This document shows positions 40,630 to 55,442 of a DNA stretch of 64,000 bases, piece by piece (within the stretch, counting starts at the first letter, position 1; every line of letters starts with the position of its first letter). Under the pieces are notes generated by a model. The model was given only the letters and a program-made list of their open reading frames with translations, had not been told where the DNA came from and did no database searches. Source of the DNA: Paenibacillus dendritiformis (GTDB lineage: Bacteria; Bacillota; Bacilli; Paenibacillales; Paenibacillaceae); assembly GCF_021654795.1 (NCBI RefSeq), contig NZ_AP025344.1, forward strand, positions 1,798,501 through 1,862,500, in the 5' to 3' direction. A program made the position numbers and the translations under genes.

Positions 40630-40818
40630 GGTGCGAATGTATAGTGCACATGAATTTCCCGGGGGATTCGCACCATGAAATTTCTATATTATAGGAAAAA
40701 TCCATCTTTTGGTTTGTGGCAAAGGTGAGAAACACCTGCTTAAGATTGATTTTATGGCTAATTTGATTCATTTAATCAGAACAGGTGCGAAAAATGATTG
40801 GAACAATCATTTTTCGCT
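40630..40818 (+). promoter_or_regulatory. Leader of CRISPR array 1
   Basis: About 190 bp that match the leader of array 2 in order and spacing. At the left end are inverted arms GGTGCGAAT (40630-40638) and ATTCGCACC (40666-40674) with GTGCAC and CCCGGG between them, then TTTCTATATTATAGG (a -10-like TATTAT). At the right end a perfect 14-bp palindrome (arms at 40787-40800 and 40804-40817, ATGATTG/CAATCAT core) ends one base before the first repeat. Such leaders drive array transcription and guide spacer insertion. Confidence 0.75.
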
Positions 40819-41516
40819 GTCGCATCCTACGCGGATGCGTGGATTGAAATTTGTCTCCGATGGCTGCGGCCGCCTTGTGATTGCCGTCGCATCCTACGCG
40901 GATGCGTGGATTGAAATAGCGCATCCTTGTTCAACTTGTTGACTTGCTGGCTTGTCGCATCCTACGCGGATGCGTGGATTGAAATCCGCAAGCAATCGTG
41001 AGTCAGATAGATCGGTCCAGCGTCGCATCCTACGCGGATGCGTGGATTGAAATAATTTGCCAAGCATTACCCACGTAACGCGGGTCGTCGCATCCTACGC
41101 GGATGCGTGGATTGAAATAAGACGTTTTTTGAGATTGGATCGGCAATTGGTAGTCGCATCCTACGCGGATGCGTGGATTGAAATGCCACCCTAACGGTTG
41201 TTATAGACCGTTAGACGCGTCGCATCCTACGCGGATGCGTGGATTGAAATTTCAACGAGTTGGGCACGGTGCCTGGACTTTACGGTCGCATCCTACGCGG
41301 ATGCGTGGATTGAAATGCGAGATGATGCCGGATGTACGTCCGGTACAGGAAGTCGCATCCTACGCGGATGCGTGGATTGAAATCTCGACCTCCGGTAAAA
41401 CAGGAAGACGCCGCTCAGTCGCATCCTACGCGGATGCGTGGATTGAAATTCGATTCCTTCGCCCATGTCTTCGGTGTGAATATTGTCGCATCCTACGCGG
41501 ATGCGCGGACTGAAAT
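40819..41516 (+). CRISPR. CRISPR array 1: 11 repeats, 10 spacers (type I-C)
   Basis: The 32-bp repeat starts GTCGCATCC and ends TGGATTGAAAT; its stem is CGCATCC/GGATGCG around loop TACGC, and the last 11 bases are the crRNA 5' handle that Cas5c cleavage leaves. Repeats start at 40819, 40886, 40954, 41022, 41087, 41153, 41219, 41285, 41352, 41418 and 41485. Spacers are 33-36 bp. Ten repeats are identical; the last (41485) has two changes in its 3' half, showing the distal end is on the right and transcription runs rightward from the leader at 40630-40818. I found no spacer match within the window by eye. Confidence 0.97.
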
Positions 41517-41554
41517 GTAGACCTCTCTAAGCAGTTCAAAAGCTCACATTGAGC

Positions 41555-43770: not shown

Positions 43771-43804
43771 ATATCCAATATTTATAGGATATGATGATAT
43801 CATC
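43771..43804 (+). promoter_or_regulatory. Two adjacent palindromes before the WYL gene
   Basis: ATATCC (43771-43776) and GGATAT (43787-43792) form one inverted repeat; GATGATATCATC (43793-43804) is a perfect 12-bp palindrome directly after it. They lie 17-50 bp before the start at 43821 and could be an autoregulatory site. Confidence 0.45.
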
Positions 43805-43820
43805 TGGAGGAGAGTCAAAG

Positions 43821-44777
43821 ATGTCCGATAGAATGATACGGCTGCTGAAAATGGTCATAGCCATACAGGCGAATCCTGGCATATCGGCGCAGGAGCTGGC
43901 CGACAAATGTGAGGCTTCCGAGCGAACCATATATCGGGATTTGCGAACGCTAGATCTTGTCGTGCCTATAACAAATGATGGATACGGAACAGGGTATCGC
44001 TTTATAGGCAACTTCGCGATGTATCCGCTTAATTTTACAGAAGAAGAGGAGATGGTCTTCTCTGTCCTCCCTTCCATGGTGGACAAAAGCAAGCTGTCTC
44101 CTCTGTTCGATTCGGCATACGACAAAGTCATGGCGACGCATGCCAAGGAGAAGCAGAAGCGCAGGGAAGCAATGGAGAACTTCACGAATCTAATACAGAT
44201 GGGAACGCCTGCTTACAAGGCAGATCGTGATAGTCCAAATTACCTGCTCCCTGTGATGGAAGCGATTATAGCGGAGAAGACAATCCGTGCAGTATACCAT
44301 ACCCAAAGCCGCAATACAGTTACAGAGCGCGAGATCGATCCGTACTGTCTTGTGCCTCGCGAGCAACGCTTCTACTTAATTGGGTATTGTCATCGGAAGC
44401 AGGACATTTTAATGTTCCGCATGAGCCGGTTTCATCGCGTCGAAATAACGACTAAAAGTTTCGACAAAGGCGATTTCGACATCCACCACTATATGAAGCA
44501 TACCTGGTCGGTCCATCGGGGCGACTCGCTTATTACGTTCAAGATCAAATTTCAGCCCGATGTGGCCAGATATATTAAGGAAGAGGAGATGTTCGTGCGC
44601 CCCAAAATGACGGACTTGCCCGACGGAAGCTTATTGTTCGAGGCGACAGTCAACCATGAGCAAGGCTTCCTGAATTGGCTCGCCCAGTATGGCCCGTCTG
44701 CCGAAATTCTGGAACCGCTATCAATAAGGAAGCAGTTCATCGAGCGGTTACAGCGTTGGATGGAGATGTATAACTAA
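43821..44777 (+). CDS. HTH/WYL-domain transcriptional regulator
   Basis: 318 residues. An N-terminal HTH of the DeoR/HTH_11 type (MIRLLKMVIAIQANPGISAQ, then ELADKCEASERTIYRDLRTL) precedes a WYL domain (YCLVPREQRFYLIGYCHRKQ and LMFRMSRFHRVEIT) and a C-terminal WCX part (ITFKIKFQPDVARYI). WYL regulators bind nucleotide or nucleic-acid ligands and often control phage-defence loci, including CRISPR-Cas. RBS GGAGGAG. It lies between two operons (PH-domain pair and cas3) that share one upstream motif, so it is the best candidate to bind it. Confidence 0.88.
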   Translation: MSDRMIRLLKMVIAIQANPGISAQELADKCEASERTIYRDLRTLDLVVPITNDGYGTGYRFIGNFAMYPLNFTEEEEMVFSVLPSMVDKSKLSPLFDSAYDKVMATHAKEKQKRREAMENFTNLIQMGTPAYKADRDSPNYLLPVMEAIIAEKTIRAVYHTQSRNTVTEREIDPYCLVPREQRFYLIGYCHRKQDILMFRMSRFHRVEITTKSFDKGDFDIHHYMKHTWSVHRGDSLITFKIKFQPDVARYIKEEEMFVRPKMTDLPDGSLLFEATVNHEQGFLNWLAQYGPSAEILEPLSIRKQFIERLQRWMEMYN

Positions 44778-44819: not shown

Positions 44820-44862
44820 CATGTGTGCGGTACAGTTACTAGGAGTAGAAAGGGGTGCTGAA

Positions 44863-47343
44863 ATGCAATCGATTGCTCATATTCGGGTGAGCGATAAGAA
44901 GGTGCAAACCGTGGAACGGCATTTGCTGGAAGTGAAGACGCTGGCGGAAAAGTACGGCGAGAAATTAAATATTCCTCATGTCACCGGGCTGGCGGGCATG
45001 CTGCATGATATGGGGAAATATACGGAGAAGTTCAGGACATACATATTGGCGGCGGTAAGCGGAGCCGAGGATCGGCTGCGTCGGGGGGAGGTTGATCATT
45101 CTACGGCCGGAGGACGGTTGCTTTATGATCGTCTTCATGCGGATGCGAAAGCGCCTTATAAAGCGATTTTGGCTGAGGTTGTAGGCAATGCGATTATTTC
45201 GCATCATTCCTATTTGCATGATTTTCTGGATCCGGATTTGGAATCTCCTTACTTGAGACGGGTTGCTTGCAAAAAGTTGGAGGAGTTTGATCGGAGCGTC
45301 GAAGCCTTTTTTACACATGTCATGAGCGAGCAGGAGTTCCAGGCATATGTGGATCGGGCGGCTGCGGAAGTGGAACAATTTCTGGCCAGAGTGCCTGCCA
45401 AGAGTATGGAACTGAAGCTGATGTTCCTGACCAAGTTCGTGTTCAGTGCCTTGATTGATGCCGACCGGACGAACACGCGCTGGTTTGAGATGGGAGAGCC
45501 GGACGAGCCGGAACAGAACGTGATGGCATTGTTTCAAGGATACTATGACAAGTTGATGGCGCAACTTCGTTCTTTCGAGGAAAATAAAGACGCAGATACG
45601 CCAATTGCCCGGTTGCGGAGCCAAATGTCCGAGTTATGCGAACATTTTGCCTCGAAGCCGTCTTCTATTTATACACTGTCGATACCGACCGGTGGCGGCA
45701 AGACGCTGGCCAGCTTGAGGTATGGATTGAAGCATGCTTTAACCTATGACAAAAAACGGATTATTTATGTCGTCCCTTTTACAACAATTATTGAGCAGAA
45801 TGCAGCAACGGTGCGCAACATATTGCAGGACGATGCGAATATTTTGGAGCATCATTCCAACGTCGTAGAAGTGGAGATGGAGGAAGACGGCGAGGAGCAG
45901 GACGGGCTGGCGCTGACGGCGCGGCAAAAGGCGAACCTGGCTAAAGACAACTGGGATGCGCCGATCATTTTTACGACGATGGTGCAATTCCTTAACGTGT
46001 TTTTCGCCCATGGAAGCAGGAACATACGGAGACTCCATAACTTGTGTGATGCAGTCATTATATTTGACGAAGTACAGAAGGTCCCTACGCATTGTATTTC
46101 GCTGTTCAACCAGGCGCTGAACTTTTTGAAGGAGTATGGGGGCTCCAGTATCGTGCTGTGCACCGCGACGCAGCCAGCGCTGCAGTTCGTGGAGCAGAAG
46201 CTTGACATCGGGGCGGACACCGAGATGATACAGGATATTAATCGCGTAATCGATGCCTTTAAGCGTGTCGAGTTGGTAGATCAAGCTACCGACAAGGCCT
46301 GGAGTACGGAAGACTTGGCAGACTTTGTCCGGGATGCCGTTCAGGAAGCGGGAAATATGCTTGTTATCTTGAATACGAAATCGGTCGTCAAGGCGCTGTA
46401 TGAACGATTGCAAGCGATGCAGGAACAAGGCCAGTTCGGCTCGGATGGGAAAATACATTTGTATCATTTGAGCACGTCGATGTGTCCCGCTCACCGTGTA
46501 TCGATTTTGGACAAGGTCAGGGTGCATCTTCGGCAGAAGGAAAAAGTGATTTGCGTCAGCACGCAGTTGATTGAAGCAGGCGTCGATGTCAGCTTCAATT
46601 GTGTCGTACGTTCCCTGGCCGGGTTGGATTCGATTGCGCAGGCGGCGGGACGGTGCAACCGGCATGGGAAAGATAACATGCGGAACGTCTACATTATCGA
46701 TCATGCGGAAGAGAATCTGAAGCATTTGAAAGAGATTCAAGTAGGGAAGGAACTGACGCGCGCGATGCTTGTCGATATGAAGCGGGATGCGAAGGCGCAT
46801 GGCGGCGAGTTGCTGTCGCAGCAGGCGATGGAGTATTATTTCCAACGATTTTATATGAAGCTGGAAGCGGACTTGAATTATTTTGTTCCCCAGCTTCGCA
46901 AAGATATGACAATCTTGTTGTATGCCGGCCGGATGGAAGCGGACAGCTATTTCCAGGCTTATCACCAGGACAGGAAAAAGAAAGGGGAGAAAGACACATG
47001 GTTGCCGCTGTTCCTTGCCAATAGTTACGGCACGGCTGCGCAACACTTTCACGTTATTGACGATCATACGCGCTCTGTCATTGTTCCATATGGGAAGGGA
47101 GGCAAGGAAATCATCGCCGAACTGAACGGGGGCGGAAGCATTGATGATCTGACGCGCCTGCTCAGACGGGCGCAGCAATTCACGGTCAATTTGTATGATC
47201 ACGATCTCCGTGAGTTGGATCGCAGCGGCGGATTGGAGAGTTGTCTCGACGGGAAAGTGCTTGTATTGAAAGAGGGGGCCTACAGCGAGCATTTTGGAGC
47301 CGACCTGAAAAATGATAGCGTCACTGGTTTTTTAGGTTTTTAA
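44863..47343 (+). CDS. cas3: CRISPR-associated nuclease/helicase Cas3 (type I-C)
   Basis: 826 residues. The N-terminal HD nuclease has LHDMGKYTEKF (His48-Asp49) and NAIISHHSYLHDF. The SF2 helicase has Walker A TGGGKT (Lys280), DEVQ at 402-405, TATQPAL, and late CVSTQLIEAGVDV and AAGRCNRHG. It is recruited when Cascade binds a PAM-flanked target and then nicks, unwinds and degrades the invader. ATG 44863 (AAAGGGG upstream) is preferred over the in-frame ATG 44821. Separated from cas5 by 252 bp, which hold a minus-strand crRNA-like gene, so cas3 and the rest may be two transcripts. Confidence 0.96.
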   Translation: MQSIAHIRVSDKKVQTVERHLLEVKTLAEKYGEKLNIPHVTGLAGMLHDMGKYTEKFRTYILAAVSGAEDRLRRGEVDHSTAGGRLLYDRLHADAKAPYKAILAEVVGNAIISHHSYLHDFLDPDLESPYLRRVACKKLEEFDRSVEAFFTHVMSEQEFQAYVDRAAAEVEQFLARVPAKSMELKLMFLTKFVFSALIDADRTNTRWFEMGEPDEPEQNVMALFQGYYDKLMAQLRSFEENKDADTPIARLRSQMSELCEHFASKPSSIYTLSIPTGGGKTLASLRYGLKHALTYDKKRIIYVVPFTTIIEQNAATVRNILQDDANILEHHSNVVEVEMEEDGEEQDGLALTARQKANLAKDNWDAPIIFTTMVQFLNVFFAHGSRNIRRLHNLCDAVIIFDEVQKVPTHCISLFNQALNFLKEYGGSSIVLCTATQPALQFVEQKLDIGADTEMIQDINRVIDAFKRVELVDQATDKAWSTEDLADFVRDAVQEAGNMLVILNTKSVVKALYERLQAMQEQGQFGSDGKIHLYHLSTSMCPAHRVSILDKVRVHLRQKEKVICVSTQLIEAGVDVSFNCVVRSLAGLDSIAQAAGRCNRHGKDNMRNVYIIDHAEENLKHLKEIQVGKELTRAMLVDMKRDAKAHGGELLSQQAMEYYFQRFYMKLEADLNYFVPQLRKDMTILLYAGRMEADSYFQAYHQDRKKKGEKDTWLPLFLANSYGTAAQHFHVIDDHTRSVIVPYGKGGKEIIAELNGGGSIDDLTRLLRRAQQFTVNLYDHDLRELDRSGGLESCLDGKVLVLKEGAYSEHFGADLKNDSVTGFLGF

Positions 47344-47349
47344 ATAGAG

Positions 47350-47419
47350 GAAGCCTATCGCTTTGAAGATAGGCTTCTAATAAAATACTATATTTTTCAA
47401 TCCCCGCTATGACAGCGAC
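47350..47419 (-). ncRNA. crRNA-like small RNA, candidate autorepressor of the cas operon
   Basis: Minus strand. Extended -10 TGCTATAAT (47433-47425) puts the start about 47418-47419, where the RNA begins GTCGCT-gtcat-AGCG: a CRISPR-repeat-like hairpin with a 4-bp instead of a 7-bp stem. GGGATTGAAAA follows, matching the 11-nt crRNA handle at 9 of 11. A guide begins at 47393. From guide position 17 it folds into a terminator (GAAGCCTATC / GATAGGCTTC, 47377-47350). Guide positions 1-18 equal the plus strand at 47502-47519 except at position 6, directly after a TTC PAM. The target is the predicted promoter of the cas5-to-cas2 genes. Expression is not shown. Confidence 0.75.
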
Positions 47420-47498
47420 AACTAATTATAGCATAACCAAGGTCATACCTATAATAAAAGTGTCAATTATACTTCATGCAGTAAACAGCCACAAATTA

Positions 47499-47519
47499 TT
47501 CATATAATATTTTATTAGA
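47499..47519 (+). promoter_or_regulatory. Predicted cas5-operon promoter, target of the crRNA-like RNA
   Basis: TTC (47499-47501, the usual type I-C PAM) precedes ATATAATATTTTATTAGA (47502-47519), which contains a TATAAT -10 box at 47503-47508. The -35 is weak (AGTAAA region near 47480). Cascade bound here would cover the -10 and the transcription start. After position 18 the match to the guide stops, which fits binding without Cas3-driven cutting. Confidence 0.65.
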
Positions 47520-47595
47520 CAGGATTGTTATTTTTTGTTGGAGAAAGTAGAATGAAGTTGTAGTTGGAGGGAATTTGTGGAAAGGAGGCGGCGCC

Positions 47596-48318
47596 TTGAT
47601 ACGGAACAGCATTGAGTTCGAGGTGATTGGGAATTATGCGCTGTTTACAGACCCGTTAACGAAGCTGGGCGGGGAAAAGATGTCTTATCCTGTCCCAACC
47701 TATCAAGCGTTAAAGGGAATCGTCGAATCGATCTACTGGAAGCCGACGATATTGTTTGTTGTAGATGCCGTTCGCGTTATGAATCCGATTCGAATGGAGT
47801 CCAAAGGGGTTCGTCCGCTTGACTATGGCGGCGGCAATACGCTTGCTTACTACTCCTATTTAAAAGATGTTCGTTACCAATGCCGGGCTCATTTCGTGTT
47901 CAACCCGAATCGGCCGGACCTGGAATATGATCGCGACGAAAATAAGCACCACAATATTTTGAAGCGCGCACTGCGGGCGGGAGGACGCCGGGATATTTTC
48001 CTCGGAGCAAGAGAATGCCAAGGTTATGTGGAGCCATGCGAATTTGGCACAGGTGAGGGCTTCTATGACAATTATGGCGAACTCCATCTCGGAACGATGG
48101 TGCATGGCATGAATTATCCGGATGAGACAGGAAGGCAGCAGATGGAGACGAGGTTATGGAACCCGGTCATGAAGGATGGCATCATTGAGTTTATCACGCC
48201 GGAACAATGTAAGCTTGTTCGCCCTGTGGCTGAGATGCAACCGAAGAAGTTCGCGGCCGGGGAGATCGAATCGGTTGAGGAATTGGAGTCCCGCCTGGAA
48301 GCGGAGGGAAGAGGATGA
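47596..48318 (+). CDS. cas5c: Cas5c (Cas5d), crRNA-processing Cascade subunit
   Basis: 240 residues. [39 protein letters not shown] and [19 protein letters not shown] are typical of type I-C Cas5. In I-C systems it replaces Cas6: it cuts the repeat 3' of the hairpin, leaving an 11-nt handle, then stays bound. TTG 47596 is 7 bases after AAAGGAGG; the frame from 47575 would place the RBS inside the gene. Stop overlaps cas8c by ATGA. Confidence 0.93.
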
Positions 48319-50234
48319 GCTGGCTGCAGCAATTATATGAGACGTATGAGGCGAACCTCGATCGGATCGGGGTTGTCGAGAAGAAGCATAGCGGGCAAGA
48401 GTTCACGCTGCTTCCGATATCTCATACGACACAAACGGCGCACATCGAGGTTCGCGTGACGGAAGACGGTGAATTCCATTCCGCTATCGTCATTGACAAG
48501 AGCGATGCCAGCACATTGATTCCGTGCACGGAGGATTCCTCCAGCCGCTCAGGAACCGCCGTATTTCCTTATCCGCTGCATGATAAGTTAAGCTATGTGG
48601 CCGGAGACTATATTGACTATGGCGGACAAGCCAAGAAAGCGGATCAGTTCAAAGCCTATATCGAACAGTTGGAAGAATGGGCCTTATCGCCATTTCGTCA
48701 TCCTCACGTTGTCAGTATTTTCAAGTACCTGAATAAAAAACGGCTTGTTCGCGATCTGGTTGAAAAAGAGAATCTGTTGTCCCTGGATGGGGACGGTTGC
48801 CTGCTTGGAAAATGGGATAAAAAATACGGCGACGAGAAACCGCCGTTGTTTGGCGTGCTGAATGGCGAACAAGAAAGCGCCTTCATTCGTTTTACGGTCT
48901 ACTCCCCGGTCCGGCCGCTCAAGGAAGTATGGAAGGATCCGGAGATGTATGATTCGTTTATTCAGTACTATAACAGCAAGCTGGGCAACGACAAGCTGTG
49001 TTATGCGACAGGGCGATTGCTGCCAGGTACGGACAAGCATGCGAATAAAATACGAAATCCGGCAGACAAAGCGAAACTGATCTCGGCCAGCGATACAAGC
49101 GGTTTTACGTTCCGGGGCCGGTTCAGCAGCAGCCAGGAAGCGGCGGGCATTAGCTATGAAGTATCGCAAAAAGCCCATAATGCGCTGAAATGGCTCATTA
49201 ACCGCCAAGGGAAAATCATTGATGGGCGCGTGTTTCTCGTTTGGTCTAATGATGCGGTAGACGTGCCGGCTCCCGGAGAGGATACCTTCGCTCTCTTTCC
49301 GGAACAGAGCGCCGCGCACAAAAGGGAATCTTTTACGAATGAAGGGTTGGCACGGGACATTAGGAGTTATCTGGCCGGGTACGGAACAGGAAAAGAGTTG
49401 TCGATTACCAATCCCGCTGTGAACCTGTTAATTCTTGATTCTGCCACAACCGGGCGCATGGCAGTGCTCTATTATCGCAATCTGGACAAGGAGCATTACT
49501 TTGACAAGCTGGCGGAGTGGCATTCCAGTTGCGTATGGATTCACCGCTACCGCAAAGATGAGAACGGCGACTATGTCCAATTCTTCGGTGCGCCGGCAAC
49601 TAAAGACATTGCATATGCTGCTTATGGATCGACGGCAAGCGATAAAGTCGTAAAAGGGCTGATGGAGCGCATGCTGCCGTGCATGGTAGACGGCGTCAAA
49701 ATTCCCGCGGATATTGTTAACAGCGTCGTTCGCCGGACGTCCAATCCGGTGGCGATGGAAAAGTGGGAGTGGGAGAAGACGCTCAGCATCGCATGCGCCT
49801 TAGTAAATAAGTTTTATCAGAAGGAGGGATACACGGTGGCGCTGGACAAGGAGAACAAGGACCGAAGCTATTTGTTTGGGAGATTGCTGGCGGTGGCCGA
49901 TATTTTGGAGCGGCGTGCGCTAGGTTCAGAAGAGACGCGCGCAACGAATGCGATTCGCTATATGAACTCGTTTGCGCAGCATCCGGTGCGGACGTGGAAG
50001 GTGATTCAAGCGAGTTTGCAGCCGTATCAGGCGCGATTGGGCGCGAAATGTACGGATTTGACGAAATTGATGGATGAGATTCTATCTGCATTTAACTATG
50101 AAGACTTTAATGATAAGCCTTTATCCGGGAAATACTTGCTGGGACTCTCCAGCCAAAGACATGACTTTTTCCAAGGAAAGAAGAAGGAAGAAAATCAAAC
50201 CAAACCATCCAATGAAGGAGAGACTGAAGCATGA
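48315..50234 (+). CDS. cas8c: Cas8c/Csd1, large subunit of type I-C Cascade
   Basis: 639 residues: N-terminal [33 protein letters not shown], central [21 protein letters not shown] with [14 protein letters not shown], and C-terminal [16 protein letters not shown] region. It reads the TTC PAM and recruits Cas3; an internal start in family members makes Cas11c. Overlaps cas5 and cas7 by four bases at each end, so translation is coupled. Confidence 0.94.
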
Positions 50235-51091
50235 CGATTCTCGATCATAAAATTGATTTTGCTGTTGTATTTTCGGTAATCAAAGCGAATCCAAATGGAG
50301 ATCCGCTGAATGGCAATCGCCCCCGTCAAAACTATGATGGCCACGGTGAAGTGTCGGATGTCGCACTGAAGCGGAAAATTCGAAACCGGCTTCAAGATCT
50401 CGGCGAACCTATTTTTGTCCAATCCAATGATAGAAGCGATGATCAGCTCAAAAGCTTGCGCGAGCGCGCGGAAGGAAACGAGGCACTGGCGAAAATAGTA
50501 AATCAAAAAGACAGTTCCAGCGAAGAGTTTGCGAAAACGGCTTGCGAGCAGTGGATCGATGTCCGCAGTTTTGGCCAGGTGTTTGCCTTCAAGGGAAGCG
50601 GTGGTAAAGGGGTATCTGTAGGCGTGCGCGGTCCGGTGTCGATACATACCGCAACGAGCGTCGATCCGATTGATATTACGAGTATGCAGATCACGAAGAG
50701 CGTTAATTCGGAGCCGGGCGAGAAGAGAGGATCAGACACAATGGGCATGAAGCACCGCGTAGACTTCGGCGTCTATGTCTTCTATGGCAGCATCAATACG
50801 CAGTTAGCGGAGAAGACGGGCTTCACCGTGGAGGATGCGGAAAAAATCAAGCAGGCGCTCGTTACGCTGTTCGAAAATGACGCCTCTTCCGCCAGACCAG
50901 AAGGAAGTATGGAGGTGCACAAGGTGTATTGGTGGGAGCACAGCAGCAAGTTGGGTCAGTATTCATCTGCCAAAGTGCACCGCTCCTTGCATATTAGCAA
51001 AAATAGGGAAGAACCAAAATCCTTCGAACACTACGACATCACACTCAACGAACTGGAAGGTCTGAAGGTTGAAATCATCGATGGCCTATAA
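50231..51091 (+). CDS. cas7c: Cas7c/Csd2, backbone subunit of type I-C Cascade
   Basis: 286 residues: KIDFAVVFSVIKANPNGDPL, NRPRQNYDGHGEVSDVALKR, KIRNRLQD and VGVRGPVSIHTATSVDPIDI are Csd2 landmarks. Several copies coat the spacer part of the crRNA, each lifting out every sixth base, which matters for the crRNA-like RNAs described here. Starts at ATG overlapping the cas8c stop. Confidence 0.95.
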   Translation: MTILDHKIDFAVVFSVIKANPNGDPLNGNRPRQNYDGHGEVSDVALKRKIRNRLQDLGEPIFVQSNDRSDDQLKSLRERAEGNEALAKIVNQKDSSSEEFAKTACEQWIDVRSFGQVFAFKGSGGKGVSVGVRGPVSIHTATSVDPIDITSMQITKSVNSEPGEKRGSDTMGMKHRVDFGVYVFYGSINTQLAEKTGFTVEDAEKIKQALVTLFENDASSARPEGSMEVHKVYWWEHSSKLGQYSSAKVHRSLHISKNREEPKSFEHYDITLNELEGLKVEIIDGL

Positions 51092-51752
51092 TGATGAAGA
51101 CAACTACTTATTGCTGTCTGGCATTCAGCATTTTCAATTCTGTAAGCGGCAATGGGCGTTGATTCACATTGAACAGCAGTGGGAAGAGAATGTGAAGACG
51201 ATTGAAGGGCTGCATCTCCATCGGAATGCGGATCAACCGTTCACGAGGGAAAAGCGCGGCGACAAGCTTGTCGTCCGCGCTATGTCTGTCAAGTCGCATG
51301 AATTGAAGCTGACAGGCATCTGTGATGTGGTCGAGTTCATACAAGACAGCCGTGGTGTTCCGATTAATGGAGTCGAGGGAAAATATGTCGCGTACCCTGT
51401 AGAATACAAGCGCGGCAAGCCGAAGACGGATGAATCCGATGTATTGCAGCTGGCTGCGCAAGCGCTCTGTCTGGAAGAGATGCTGTTGTGCGATGTGCAG
51501 ACAGGATATATTTTTTATCAAGAGTTAAAGCGTCGAATTGAGGTTCCGCTTACGGATGATGTGAAGCAGAGGGTCAAAGTTGTGGCAGCGGAAATGCATG
51601 ATTATTATAAGCGCAGCCATACGCCAAAAGTCAAAACCGGGCCCTATTGCAAAAACTACTCGCTGCAATCCATCTGCCTGCCGGCCTTGATGAACAAACG
51701 GACGGTAAAAAGTTATATTGAGGGGAAGATCAAAGATGAAGCGTCTCCTTAA
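51081..51752 (+). CDS. cas4: Cas4 exonuclease, one Fe-S cysteine replaced
   Basis: 223 residues. RecB-type nuclease with HFQFCKRQWALIHIEQQWEE (Cys21), VEYKRGKPKTDESDVLQLAA (catalytic E-x-K and Q) and a C-terminal cluster. Most Cas4 proteins bind a 4Fe-4S cluster with one N-terminal and three C-terminal Cys, the latter spaced C-x2-C-x5-C. Here they read Cys190, Tyr193, Cys199 (YCKNYSLQSICLP), so one ligand is lost. Cas4 trims prespacers and enforces PAM choice during uptake. ATG 51081 overlaps the cas7 end; overlaps cas1 by 17 bases. Confidence 0.92.
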   Translation: MAYNDEDNYLLLSGIQHFQFCKRQWALIHIEQQWEENVKTIEGLHLHRNADQPFTREKRGDKLVVRAMSVKSHELKLTGICDVVEFIQDSRGVPINGVEGKYVAYPVEYKRGKPKTDESDVLQLAAQALCLEEMLLCDVQTGYIFYQELKRRIEVPLTDDVKQRVKVVAAEMHDYYKRSHTPKVKTGPYCKNYSLQSICLPALMNKRTVKSYIEGKIKDEASP

Positions 51753-52767
51753 CACGTTATATGTAAACCAGCCGGACGTTTATATGGCATTGGACGGGGA
51801 CAATATTGTGCTGCAGAAGGGAGAAGAGAAGCTGGGCCGTCTTCCGTTGCACAATCTGGAAGCTATCGTCGCTTTCGGTTATACAGGAGCAAGTCCTGCG
51901 TTGATGGGGTATTGTGCAGATCGGAATATTGCGATCACCTTTATGACGGTGACCGGCAGATTTCTGGCCAGGGTCATTGGACAGAGCAAAGGAAATGTAG
52001 TGCTGCGGAAAAAGCAATACCTTGTCTCTGAGGATGAGCGCTTGTCCGCCCAAATTGCACGCAATTTTATTGTCGGCAAAATTTATAACCATAAGTGGAT
52101 GATTGAGCGGATGACGCGAGACTACCCGCTGCGAATCAATGTTGATCAGTTCAAAGAGATTTCCGCGCAGTTATCGTCCCTCATGCTGGAAGTACGGGCT
52201 TGTGAAGATCTGGAACGTCTGCGTGGCTTAGAAGGACAAGCTGCAGTCAGCTACAATAAGGCTTTTGGCCAAATGATTCTGCAACAGACAGACGATTTTT
52301 ACTTTCATTCCCGTTCACGCAGGCCGCCGCTGGACAATGTAAATGCGATGTTGTCGCTTGCGTACACATTGTTGGCGAAGGATATGGCCTCCGCATTGGA
52401 AGCGGTCGGGCTGGATGCTTATGTCGGATTTTTGCATCGCGATCGTCCGGGGCGGGCTTCACTTGCTCTGGACGTGATGGAAGAGTTGCGGGGGAACTAT
52501 GCGGACCGATTTGTTCTCACCTTGATTAATAAAAAAATTGTGAACAAGGATGATTTTTACAAGAAGGAAAACGGCGCTGTCTTGATGACAGATGAGGCGA
52601 GAAAAAAATTTTTGCAGGCATGGCAGGATAAGAAGCAAGAAAAGATAGTTCATCCCTATCTGGGAGAGAAAATCAGTTGGGGACTTGTCCCGCATGCCCA
52701 GGCCCTGTTGCTAGCTCGTCATTTGCGTGAGGATCTAGATGAGTACCCTCCATTTCTCTGGAAGTAG
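51736..52767 (+). CDS. cas1: Cas1 integrase (type I-C)
   Basis: 343 residues. KRLLNTLYVNQPDVYMALDG, IVAFGYTGASPALMGYCADR, GLEGQAAVSYNKAF (metal-binding Glu), VGFLHRDRPGRASLALDVME (His and later acid). Joins new spacers at the leader end with Cas2. Start ATG 51736 after GAGGGGAAG, overlapping cas4. Confidence 0.96.
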   Translation: MKRLLNTLYVNQPDVYMALDGDNIVLQKGEEKLGRLPLHNLEAIVAFGYTGASPALMGYCADRNIAITFMTVTGRFLARVIGQSKGNVVLRKKQYLVSEDERLSAQIARNFIVGKIYNHKWMIERMTRDYPLRINVDQFKEISAQLSSLMLEVRACEDLERLRGLEGQAAVSYNKAFGQMILQQTDDFYFHSRSRRPPLDNVNAMLSLAYTLLAKDMASALEAVGLDAYVGFLHRDRPGRASLALDVMEELRGNYADRFVLTLINKKIVNKDDFYKKENGAVLMTDEARKKFLQAWQDKKQEKIVHPYLGEKISWGLVPHAQALLLARHLREDLDEYPPFLWK

Positions 52768-52777
52768 GTGGTATAAT

Positions 52778-53068
52778 TTGTTGGTACTAATCACTTATGA
52801 TGTCAGCACGACCAGTATTGCCGGGCAGCGCAGGTTACGTAAAGTCGCAAAGTTATGCCAAAATTATGGTCAGAGAGTGCAAAACTCTGTTTTTGAATGC
52901 AATGTAGACGCAGCTCAGTTCGCCAGCTTGAAGATCCAACTTATCGATATGATCGATGAACAGGAAGATAGCCTGCGATTTTATCAATTAGGAAACAACT
53001 ACAAAAGCAAGGTGGAGCATATTGGTGTGAAGGCATCGATCGATATGGAAGGGACCCTAATTTTCTAG
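52778..53068 (+). CDS. cas2: Cas2, spacer-acquisition partner of Cas1
   Basis: 96 residues. LVLITYDVSTTSIAGQRRLR with the conserved Asp, LCQNYGQRVQNSVFECNVD, DSLRFYQLGNNYKSKVEHIG. It starts at one of two TTGs (52778, 52781), after GTAGGTGG. The stop codon overlaps the left arm of the leader palindrome of array 2, so cas operon and leader are directly joined. Confidence 0.93.
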   Translation: MLVLITYDVSTTSIAGQRRLRKVAKLCQNYGQRVQNSVFECNVDAAQFASLKIQLIDMIDEQEDSLRFYQLGNNYKSKVEHIGVKASIDMEGTLIF

Positions 53069-53257: not shown

Positions 53258-54086
53258 GTCGCATCCTATGTGGATGCGTGGATTGAAATTCTTAGCGGCG
53301 CTGTTGCTGCTCCTAACATTCAAAGTCGCATCCTATGTGGATGCGTGGATTGAAATTCGGATGATAAGGCCTTGTTTAACGGCCTCTTCGACGTCGCATC
53401 CTATGTGGATGCGTGGATTGAAATCTTCAGGGTATGTTTCGGAGCCGGCTCAGTCGGAGGGTCGCATCCTATGTGGATGCGTGGATTGAAATTACTTTGG
53501 GCTATCGGAACTCAAAGCCCAGCCCCGGTCGCATCCTATGTGGATGCGTGGATTGAAATTTCGATCAAGTCACCATCGGATTTATCAAATCCGGTCGCAT
53601 CCTATGTGGATGCGTGGATTGAAATCGGAGGATGACGGCTTGACTGATAAGGTAGTATCGTCGCATCCTACGCGGATGCGTGGATTGAAATTTTTTCGTC
53701 GCTTAAAAACGAAATTACGAATATGTCGCATCCTACGCGGATGCGTGGATTGAAATAGGCGTGGGGGATACGAGGACATCTCGCACTTTGGTCGCATCCT
53801 ACGCGGATGCGTGGATTGAAATCGCCGCCGGCTGCTCCGCCGTACAGTATCTCAGTCGCATCCTACGCGGATGCGTGGATTGAAATTATCAGGCGAAACG
53901 AGGAACGATCAGTTTGGTTGACGTCGCATCCTACGCGGATGCGTGGATTGAAATTTCGAGTTTTGAGAGAAACCGACACCCATCGGAGTCGCATCCTACG
54001 CGGATGCGTGGATTGAAATAGTTCCCAGGTCGGCTACCTTCTTGAGGGATGGGCGTCGCATCCTACGCGGATGCATGGGTTGAAAT
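53258..54086 (+). CRISPR. CRISPR array 2: 13 repeats, 12 spacers, two repeat versions
   Basis: 32-bp repeats of the same family as array 1. The first six (53258, 53325, 53393, 53461, 53528, 53594) carry loop TATGT; the other seven (53660, 53725, 53791, 53855, 53923, 53988, 54055) carry TACGC as in array 1. The last has two further changes (GCATGGGTTG region), marking the distal end. Spacers are 32-36 bp. Transcription is rightward from the leader after cas2. The stem CGCATCC/GGATGCG and the 11-base handle are unchanged in all but the last. Confidence 0.97.
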
Positions 54087-54304: not shown

Positions 54305-54407
54305 TTAAAAAAATAGAAGCTATGCTTCAGGTCAGTTAGGACTTGAGGAATAGCTTCTATTTTTTATAGCCTTTATATTAATATTTCAATCCACGCCTTT
54401 TGGCGAC
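54305..54407 (-). ncRNA. Second crRNA-like small RNA, CreA-like candidate antitoxin
   Basis: Minus strand. Extended -10 TGCTATAGT (54422-54414) sets the start near 54407, the G of GTCGCC-aaaa-GGCG, a 4-bp CRISPR-repeat-like hairpin. Next is TGGATTGAAAT, identical to the 11-nt crRNA handle. The guide starts at 54382, and a strong terminator (ATAGAAGCTAT / ATAGCTTCTAT, then TTTTTTT) ends it near 54306. Guide positions 1-18 equal the plus strand at 54530-54547 except at positions 6 and 12, after a TTC PAM; 19-20 differ, 21-24 match. This is the architecture of CreA antitoxin RNAs, which direct Cascade to a nearby toxin promoter. Confidence 0.75.
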
Positions 54408-54824
54408 AAAAACACTATAGCATTCATTGTAAGAGAGAGAGTGCATTAAAATCAACAGTTTCAAAATTTCAGAGGTTCTATATTTACAAATAACCCCATC
54501 TTGTGTAAGATGTCATTAATTAATAGTTCATTAAAATAAAAGCTATATTAAATGCACCAAAAAATTAAACTTAACCATCTTATGGAAATTAGAAAGCAAT
54601 TACAGCATTAATCCAGAAAGCTTACTTCTTTGGATTTTTACATAATGGATAATTTGATGAAGATGGGAGATGGTGCAGAAGCTAACTATTCGTTACTTTT
54701 TGTTGTAGCCTAGATATCTTATTTTTATGGATCCCCTAATAGAGTTACTTACTCATTTTTACCTCAATGTGATTGCTTTATCAAAATTAAAAATTTTATC
54801 ATATGTATCCAGGAGGGATTCTCG
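54408..54824. other. AT-rich gap holding the second RNA's target site and a possible toxin promoter
   Basis: No ORF above about 25 codons with a ribosome-binding site. TTC (54527-54529) and the matched bases 54530-54553 overlap a leftward TAATAT box (54550-54545) with TTAAGT 18 bp upstream, and a rightward TATATT (54544-54549). Leftward, the transcript would run toward the crRNA-like gene, as creT does in CreTA; candidates are a three-codon ORF (MNY) and 10- and 12-codon ORFs. Rightward, 9- and 22-codon ORFs occur. I cannot name the toxin, if there is one. Confidence 0.5.
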
Positions 54825-55442
54825 TTGAGTTGGAAGTTAATTCATCGTAACGGTGAAACTTATCCAGGAGCTTTCAATCTATTGAGACAAGAAGATCTGC
54901 CCCAATTAAAAAAGAGTGATGGCTGGTCACGTGGGATAGACTGGAGCATTTTCCTTCGAAAAAACCAGGAGTATACAGCGTATAAACTACATATAGTTGG
55001 AGACAACCGTATCCAAGGGTTGCTTGCCATCGCAATTAGAACAGGATTTGTGGAGCTCGCTATTGCAGAGAAAGCGTTCCACAATCGTAAACCAAACGAA
55101 GAGTTCAAAAATGTGGGGGATGTTTTGTTAGCACATGCCTGTTTGTGTGACTTGGTGAATAACGGTGATGGATATGTTTTATTTAAATCAAAGATGAGCT
55201 TAATGGGTCATTACGGGTACGACAATGGCATGGAAGTGGTTAACAAAAAACGAAGATTGCTATGCTGCATGGCTAAACGAGCTCGATTATTTACTTGGGG
55301 GGGGATGCTTAATGCGAAAATCCGAATCAATAACTATCGGTCGGAAAGTGTATCCGAGCCAACGCTCTGTCATTCGACCAGTCAATGGTGGAATTATGGC
55401 TGTTCCTATTCCAAGCGAGTAGCGCATGAGTGCAGACAATGA
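54825..55442 (+). CDS. Hypothetical protein with GNAT-like core; 3' end uncertain because of a G8 tract
   Basis: The frame from 54825 (AGGAGG upstream) gives 205 residues. Residues 1-145 look coding (IQGLLAIAIRTGFVELAIAE, then LLAHACLCDLVNNGDGYVLF), resembling a GNAT-like fold. The rest looks poorly coding. From about 55225 a +1 frame reads well (WKWLTKNEDCYAAWLNELDY, GRKVYPSQRSVIRPVNGGIM) and stops at 55422. A run of eight G at about 55298-55305 could restore the frame or serve as an RBS for a 36-residue ORF starting just after it. Function unknown. Confidence 0.45.
   Translation: MSWKLIHRNGETYPGAFNLLRQEDLPQLKKSDGWSRGIDWSIFLRKNQEYTAYKLHIVGDNRIQGLLAIAIRTGFVELAIAEKAFHNRKPNEEFKNVGDVLLAHACLCDLVNNGDGYVLFKSKMSLMGHYGYDNGMEVVNKKRRLLCCMAKRARLFTWGGMLNAKIRINNYRSESVSEPTLCHSTSQWWNYGCSYSKRVAHECRQ

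Follow-up and report, generated by a model that had tools for sequence, protein, structure and literature searches.

CreR RNAs, demonstrated for subtypes I-B, I-E and V-A as listed in a 2026 review (PMC13131331), are cas-regulating, crRNA-like RNAs that lie beside cas genes and match a cas promoter partially and next to a PAM; in the usual mini-CRISPR of this kind, two repeats flank the spacer. CreA RNAs of archaeal I-B and Acinetobacter I-F systems are also crRNA-like guides, reported with either one degenerate repeat or two (PMC9458426), and are aimed at a toxin; in the I-F CreA, 17 of 20 positions pair, those left out being 6, 11 and 18 (PMC10097628). A third kind, the phage RNA anti-CRISPR Racr, is a viral solitary repeat. 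In class 2, tracr-L of the II-A effector Cas9 is a natural guide which turns the effector onto its own promoter; this isoform of the tracrRNA carries its guide internally and has no crRNA-like repeat unit. Shmakov et al. reportedly surveyed, in 2023, repeats that stand alone and match cas promoters in part, mostly of type I, and the survey may include I-C. We found no I-C case of CreR described in the searchable literature, though that survey may catalogue one.

The stretch analysed here (the window, 64,000 nucleotides of the single-contig, 6.5-Mb genome of Paenibacillus dendritiformis) carries a complete type I-C locus, recognised by profile matches and composed of a WYL regulator, cas3, cas5c-cas8c-cas7-cas4-cas1-cas2 and two arrays. 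Its Cas5c is 94-95% identical to those of P. dendritiformis and P. apiarius, the nearest relatives of the cas locus. Between cas3 and cas5 lies a crRNA-like unit (unit 1) which we believe, with a probability of roughly 0.9, to be the gene for a CreR-like autorepressor RNA of the cas5-cas2 operon. As in CreR, a degenerate cognate repeat is found in a crRNA-like gene next to cas genes, complementarity to the cas promoter is limited and PAM-adjacent, and autorepression would be expected to depend on Cascade. Unlike the described CreR cases, unit 1 belongs to subtype I-C, with Cas5c and without Cas6; it has one repeat and an intrinsic terminator in place of two repeats flanking a spacer; and its match of ~15-18 positions, with the unread positions 6 and 12 revealed by coevolution, is known here from sequence alone. 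As the related CreA RNAs have one or two repeats, we take two repeats to be usual and not defining, and call unit 1 a putative RNA of the CreR kind, of a single-repeat, terminator-ended design, in I-C. It differs from CreA in aiming at the cas5 promoter instead of a toxin, from tracr-L in having a repeat, and from Racr in being conserved between cas3 and cas5. The features of the locus are collected in Table 1.

Table 1. Features of the type I-C locus in the window, with positions counted from its first letter.
Feature	Position	Strand	Remarks
CRISPR array 1	40818..41517	plus	repeat family common to array 2
WYL/HTH regulator gene	43791..44777		directly upstream of cas3
cas3	44821..47343	plus	upstream of unit 1; promoter without match to guide 1
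Unit 1, crRNA-like	47419..47343	minus	single repeat; sequence reading and script
Intrinsic terminator (unit 1)	47350..47377	minus	10-bp stem from guide position 17; stands where a second repeat would be
Guide 1 ATATAGTATTTTATTAGA	47376..47393	minus	18 nt; equals target except position 6
Degenerate single CRISPR repeat GTCGCTGTCATAGCGGGGATTGAAAA	47394..47419	minus	CGCU...AGCG hairpin and 11-nt handle GGGATTGAAAA
Extended -10 TGCTATAAT	47425..47433	minus	from sequence; predicted RNA start 47418-47419, first repeat base
PAM TTC	47499..47501	plus	from sequence; TTC enriched across loci against 11 other trinucleotides
Target (protospacer) ATATAATATTTTATTAGA	47502..47519	plus	cas5 promoter region; directly 3' of TTC
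Likely cas5-operon promoter	47525..47553	plus	-35 TTGTTA (47525), 17 bp, -10 TAGAAT (47548); consensus matches
cas5c (Cas5d)	47596..48318	plus	TIGR01876, PF09704; first gene of presumed controlled operon
cas8c, cas7, cas4, cas1, cas2	48315..53068	plus	TIGR01863, TIGR02589, TIGR00372, TIGR03640, TIGR01573; remaining operon genes
CRISPR array 2	53258..54086	plus	13 repeats; source of competing canonical crRNAs
Unit 2	54407..54310	minus	downstream of array 2
Guide 2 ATTAATATAAAGGCTATA	54365..54382	minus	18 nt; followed by long, strong terminator hairpin, ~54365-54310
Second solitary repeat GTCGCCAAAAGGCGTGGATTGAAAT	54383..54407	minus	handle identical to arrays; preceded by TGCTATAGT (54422-54414)
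PAM TTC and unit 2 target ATTAAAATAAAAGCTATA	54527..54529 and 54530..54547	plus	mismatches only at 6 and 12
ORF	54825..55442		~280 bp after unit 2 target; good ribosome site

The anatomy of unit 1 is legible in the sequence itself. An earlier note on this DNA had described a minus-strand unit with an extended -10, a repeat-like hairpin, a handle with 9 of 11 bases matching and a guide, and direct reading together with a script bore this description out. The array repeat is GTCGCATCCTATGTGGATGCGTGGATTGAAAT and its handle TGGATTGAAAT, to which the handle of unit 1, GGGATTGAAAA, is identical at 9 of 11 positions; a TATAAT-like box immediately 5' of the GTCGC start was seen again in many related units, and folding of the whole unit gave a z-score of -3.35. 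The 252 bp given in that note for the cas3-cas5 gap are correct if cas5 starts at TTG 47596, just 5' of which stands the ribosome site AAAGGAGG. Within the terminator stem (47377-47350), the word CCTATC, often ACCTATC, is kept in many species, beyond what a hairpin needs.

Guide 1 is identical to the plus strand directly after TTC at 17 of 18 positions, position 6 being the only mismatch, exactly as had been claimed. Dinucleotide shuffling of the gap, a control which the earlier note had proposed and which was scored with the real guide over TTC-adjacent sites at the non-sixth positions of 1-17, never reached the observed 15/15 in 5000 trials (best 13/15, once). The 20-base pattern of TTC plus guide 1 occurs a single time in the 6.5-Mb genome, where its reversed control has no occurrence. 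Two other targets were considered and rejected: cas3, as the guide pattern occurs only that once, and the cas5 mRNA, for which the guide RNA cannot be an antisense RNA because it has the same sense as the plus strand of the target.

The target sits between two divergent promoters. TATAAT is indeed present within it (47503-47508), as the earlier note had pointed out, but it is probably not the -10 of cas5: TTGTTA-17-TAGAAT, which would place the transcription start near 47560, is the likelier promoter, and the target abuts its -35 (47525). Several relatives do not keep the TATAAT (GCACAACATGATATTATTGACT in locus L148, ATATATTGTGTAAAGTATTGACA in locus L094). Over 37 loci, the -35-like TTKAY boxes were commonest 20-29 bp after the target start (20 hits); 13 and 8 fell in the bins 0-9 and 10-19, where the target and the first of the -35s lie, 10 in the bin -40 to -31, and 1-4 in each of the others. 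Lying as it does upstream of the predicted -35, not across the -10, the target could also serve a Cascade-guided RNA which acts at the cas5 promoter without repressing the operon, by masking a regulator site, by activating, or by controlling its own divergent promoter. A Cascade placed on TTC 47499-47501 would, however, cover the -35 with a footprint of ~35 bp from the PAM, and the CreR and CreA precedents repress (PMC13131331, PMC10097628); we regard a non-repressing role as improbable.

The occurrence of such units was surveyed in 121 type I-C loci in total, drawn from 40 regions of genus and family relatives and 80 named Bacillales loci. The 1.6 kb upstream of cas5 were scanned for GATTGAAA, a single deviation being allowed, together with a TTC target that matched at 13 or more of 17 equally weighted positions. 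A unit with its TTC target was found upstream of cas5 in 54 of the 121 loci (some species being represented twice), against 0-3 loci for each of eleven other trinucleotides put in the place of TTC. The named carriers include Paenibacillus, Aeribacillus, Aquibacillus, Cytobacillus, Fictibacillus, Evansella, Metabacillus, Pontibacillus and one Sporosarcina MAG. When the full fetched loci were scanned, hardly any unit turned up elsewhere than between cas3 and cas5. About half of the 121 Bacillales loci had no recognisable unit, so that it is not essential to I-C, and a phylum-wide sample yielded candidates in only 2 of 29 loci, one of them weak (13/15). Of 39 distinct guide-target pairs, 32 were mismatched at position 6 and 28 at position 12, with 0-1 mismatches at every other position up to 15; there were 8 at position 16 and 20 at position 17, and the pairs were near random by 17-18. 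Position 6 is thus free to vary, as is position 12, in keeping with the suggestion that it is not read.

Some loci depart from the common arrangement. In Paenibacillus montaniterrae (-1300 to -315 from cas5) the target lies ~110 bp before a small cargo ORF between cas3 and cas5, whose product looks, by its sequence, like a TIR or deoxyribosyltransferase-type protein. Paenibacillus sp. SZ31 has a plus-strand unit (-3906 to -3851 from cas5) whose guide lies 55 bp downstream of the target, an arrangement that looks like a unit placed in the cas operon leader to repress the shared promoter. The unit and target of P. alvei DSM 29 (-2383 and -2294) are ~2.3 kb from cas5, a natural displacement that seems due to genes inserted in between. 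Four further loci (L134, L143, L144 and L155) have different guides and targets 320-505 bp from cas5, and may control transcripts other than cas5.

The guide and its target have changed together. At the read positions (the 13 positions of 1-15 without 6 and 12), they agree in 402 of 403 cases over 31 distinct cas5-proximal pairs; when guides were re-paired with the targets of other species, 301 agreements were obtained (sd 7, maximum 339, 20,000 trials). Mapped on the Cas5c tree, these positions underwent 49 changes in the guide and 50 in the target, of which 49 fell on the same branch, while positions 6 and 12 had 8-14 changes per side and only 2 shared at each. The same-branch counts follow in part from the near-identity of the pairs at the tips, and the point is that ~49 substitutions were answered on the other side. 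Spacer bases 6, 12, 18 and so on of the crRNA are flipped out by Cas7, as shown for type I-E (PMC5965380). Because the match starts at the TTC and at the handle, skips positions 6 and 12, and drifts yet stays matched, we take the guide to be read by Cascade; such coevolution with free positions 6 and 12 is the signature of a Cascade-read guide, and not of chance, of an accidental duplication or of a protein operator. The proposal of the earlier note that the RNA steers I-C Cascade to the cas5 promoter region without cutting is strongly supported, by the coevolution, the PAM, the free sixth positions and the short match, all but for its use of TATAAT as the -10.

The two sites also form an inverted repeat in DNA, and a WYL/HTH regulator gene lies directly upstream of cas3, so they might be an inverted operator pair for a protein regulator such as this WYL protein, their likeness to a handle being incidental. 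An operator pair would not be expected to have one site begin precisely where the handle passes into the guide and the other directly after TTC, to vary freely at positions 6 and 12, or to stay matched while the site differs as widely between species as GCACA-CATGA and ATATA-TATTT; this explanation is largely refuted, and we give it very little credence. A decayed one-repeat array with a functionless self-targeting spacer, suggested by the solitary and degenerate repeat, is refuted by the covariation, as the kept position, promoter and terminator and the 49 paired changes imply lasting selection, and a chance pairing of a handle-like word with a similar stretch after TTC, in an AT-rich gap where TTKAY or TATAAT, taken singly, is often met, is refuted by the 5000 shuffles and by recurrence with covariation in dozens of species; both are negligible.

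For the CreR-like autorepressor we infer the following course of events. Transcription would begin at the first base of the solitary repeat, and the RNA would end at its own terminator instead of a second repeat. Cas5c (Cas5d), the crRNA-processing subunit in I-C, would recognise the degenerate repeat and cut or bind at the handle. Cascade loaded with this RNA would then recognise the TTC and pair over ~15-18 positions, with bases 6 and 12 flipped out and unread. Pairing of guide and target ends near position 16 (up to 18), and interference by a Xanthomonas I-C system takes ~27 bp or more beside the TTC PAM (PMC8406640); binding without cutting is proposed on account of this difference, the match being presumably too short to license Cas3, so that Cascade would remain bound beside and over the -35 and block RNA polymerase at the cas5-cas8c-cas7-cas4-cas1-cas2 operon. 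I-C Cascade without Cas3 placed on a promoter does repress transcription (PMC10865793). In the I-B system of H. hispanica, spacers of 20-24 nt repress with no interference or priming, and a 16-nt spacer represses mildly, lowering expression only to 67% (PMC10989794); from the latter value, repression by unit 1 may likewise be mild. A plentiful supply of crRNAs or an inhibition of Cascade should relieve it, because canonical crRNAs would consume, and anti-CRISPRs disable, the same complex.

A second solitary-repeat unit (unit 2) lies after array 2. Guide 2 matches its target at 15 of 15 non-sixth positions of 1-17, which none of 5000 shuffles equalled, and the genome contains no second such match. 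The target is ~150 bp from the guide unit, just 3' of a possible promoter, TTTACA-17-TAAGAT (54483-54511). With a CreA-like guide that has a PAM-adjacent partial match beside a cas locus, as in CreTA, unit 2 may resemble CreA by its layout; the gene which it would control is not identified as a toxin. The ORF that follows the target had no Pfam, NCBIfam or PDB match, and no clear small toxin ORF was found. Elsewhere in the genus, a homologue of this ORF turned up in a single genome, with 35% identity and on another contig; a G run near 55299, together with homologue matches confined to the first two thirds, suggests a possible frameshift. Its AlphaFold model was discarded at a pLDDT of 30. Viral contigs contained no relatives of this ORF or of the Cas5c of the window, and unit 2 was found in none of the fetched relatives. 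An Rfam search gave nothing relevant, with one subthreshold microRNA match over the terminator hairpin of unit 2.

A broader scenario, which we offer tentatively and would not bet on at even odds, is that one I-C locus uses two compact repeat-guide-terminator guides, one setting the dose of Cascade and the other keeping a neighbouring gene repressed as a guard, both through a shortened Cascade on 15-18 nt that would sense crRNA load and anti-CRISPR attack. If true, this would be a two-guide sensor, and the demonstration of either function would be new for the subtype. The natural covariation reveals which guide positions are used, with 1-5, 7-11 and 13-15 held, 6 and 12 free, and pairing fading after 16, and this pattern provides a design rule, taken from nature, for guides that repress but do not cut. 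On the autorepressor reading, an anti-CRISPR that acts against I-C should lead to more Cascade. Few CRISPR subtypes are as common as I-C, and the control of its cas operon is little known; a conserved guide tying the level of Cascade to the supply of crRNA would explain cas control in many Bacillales.
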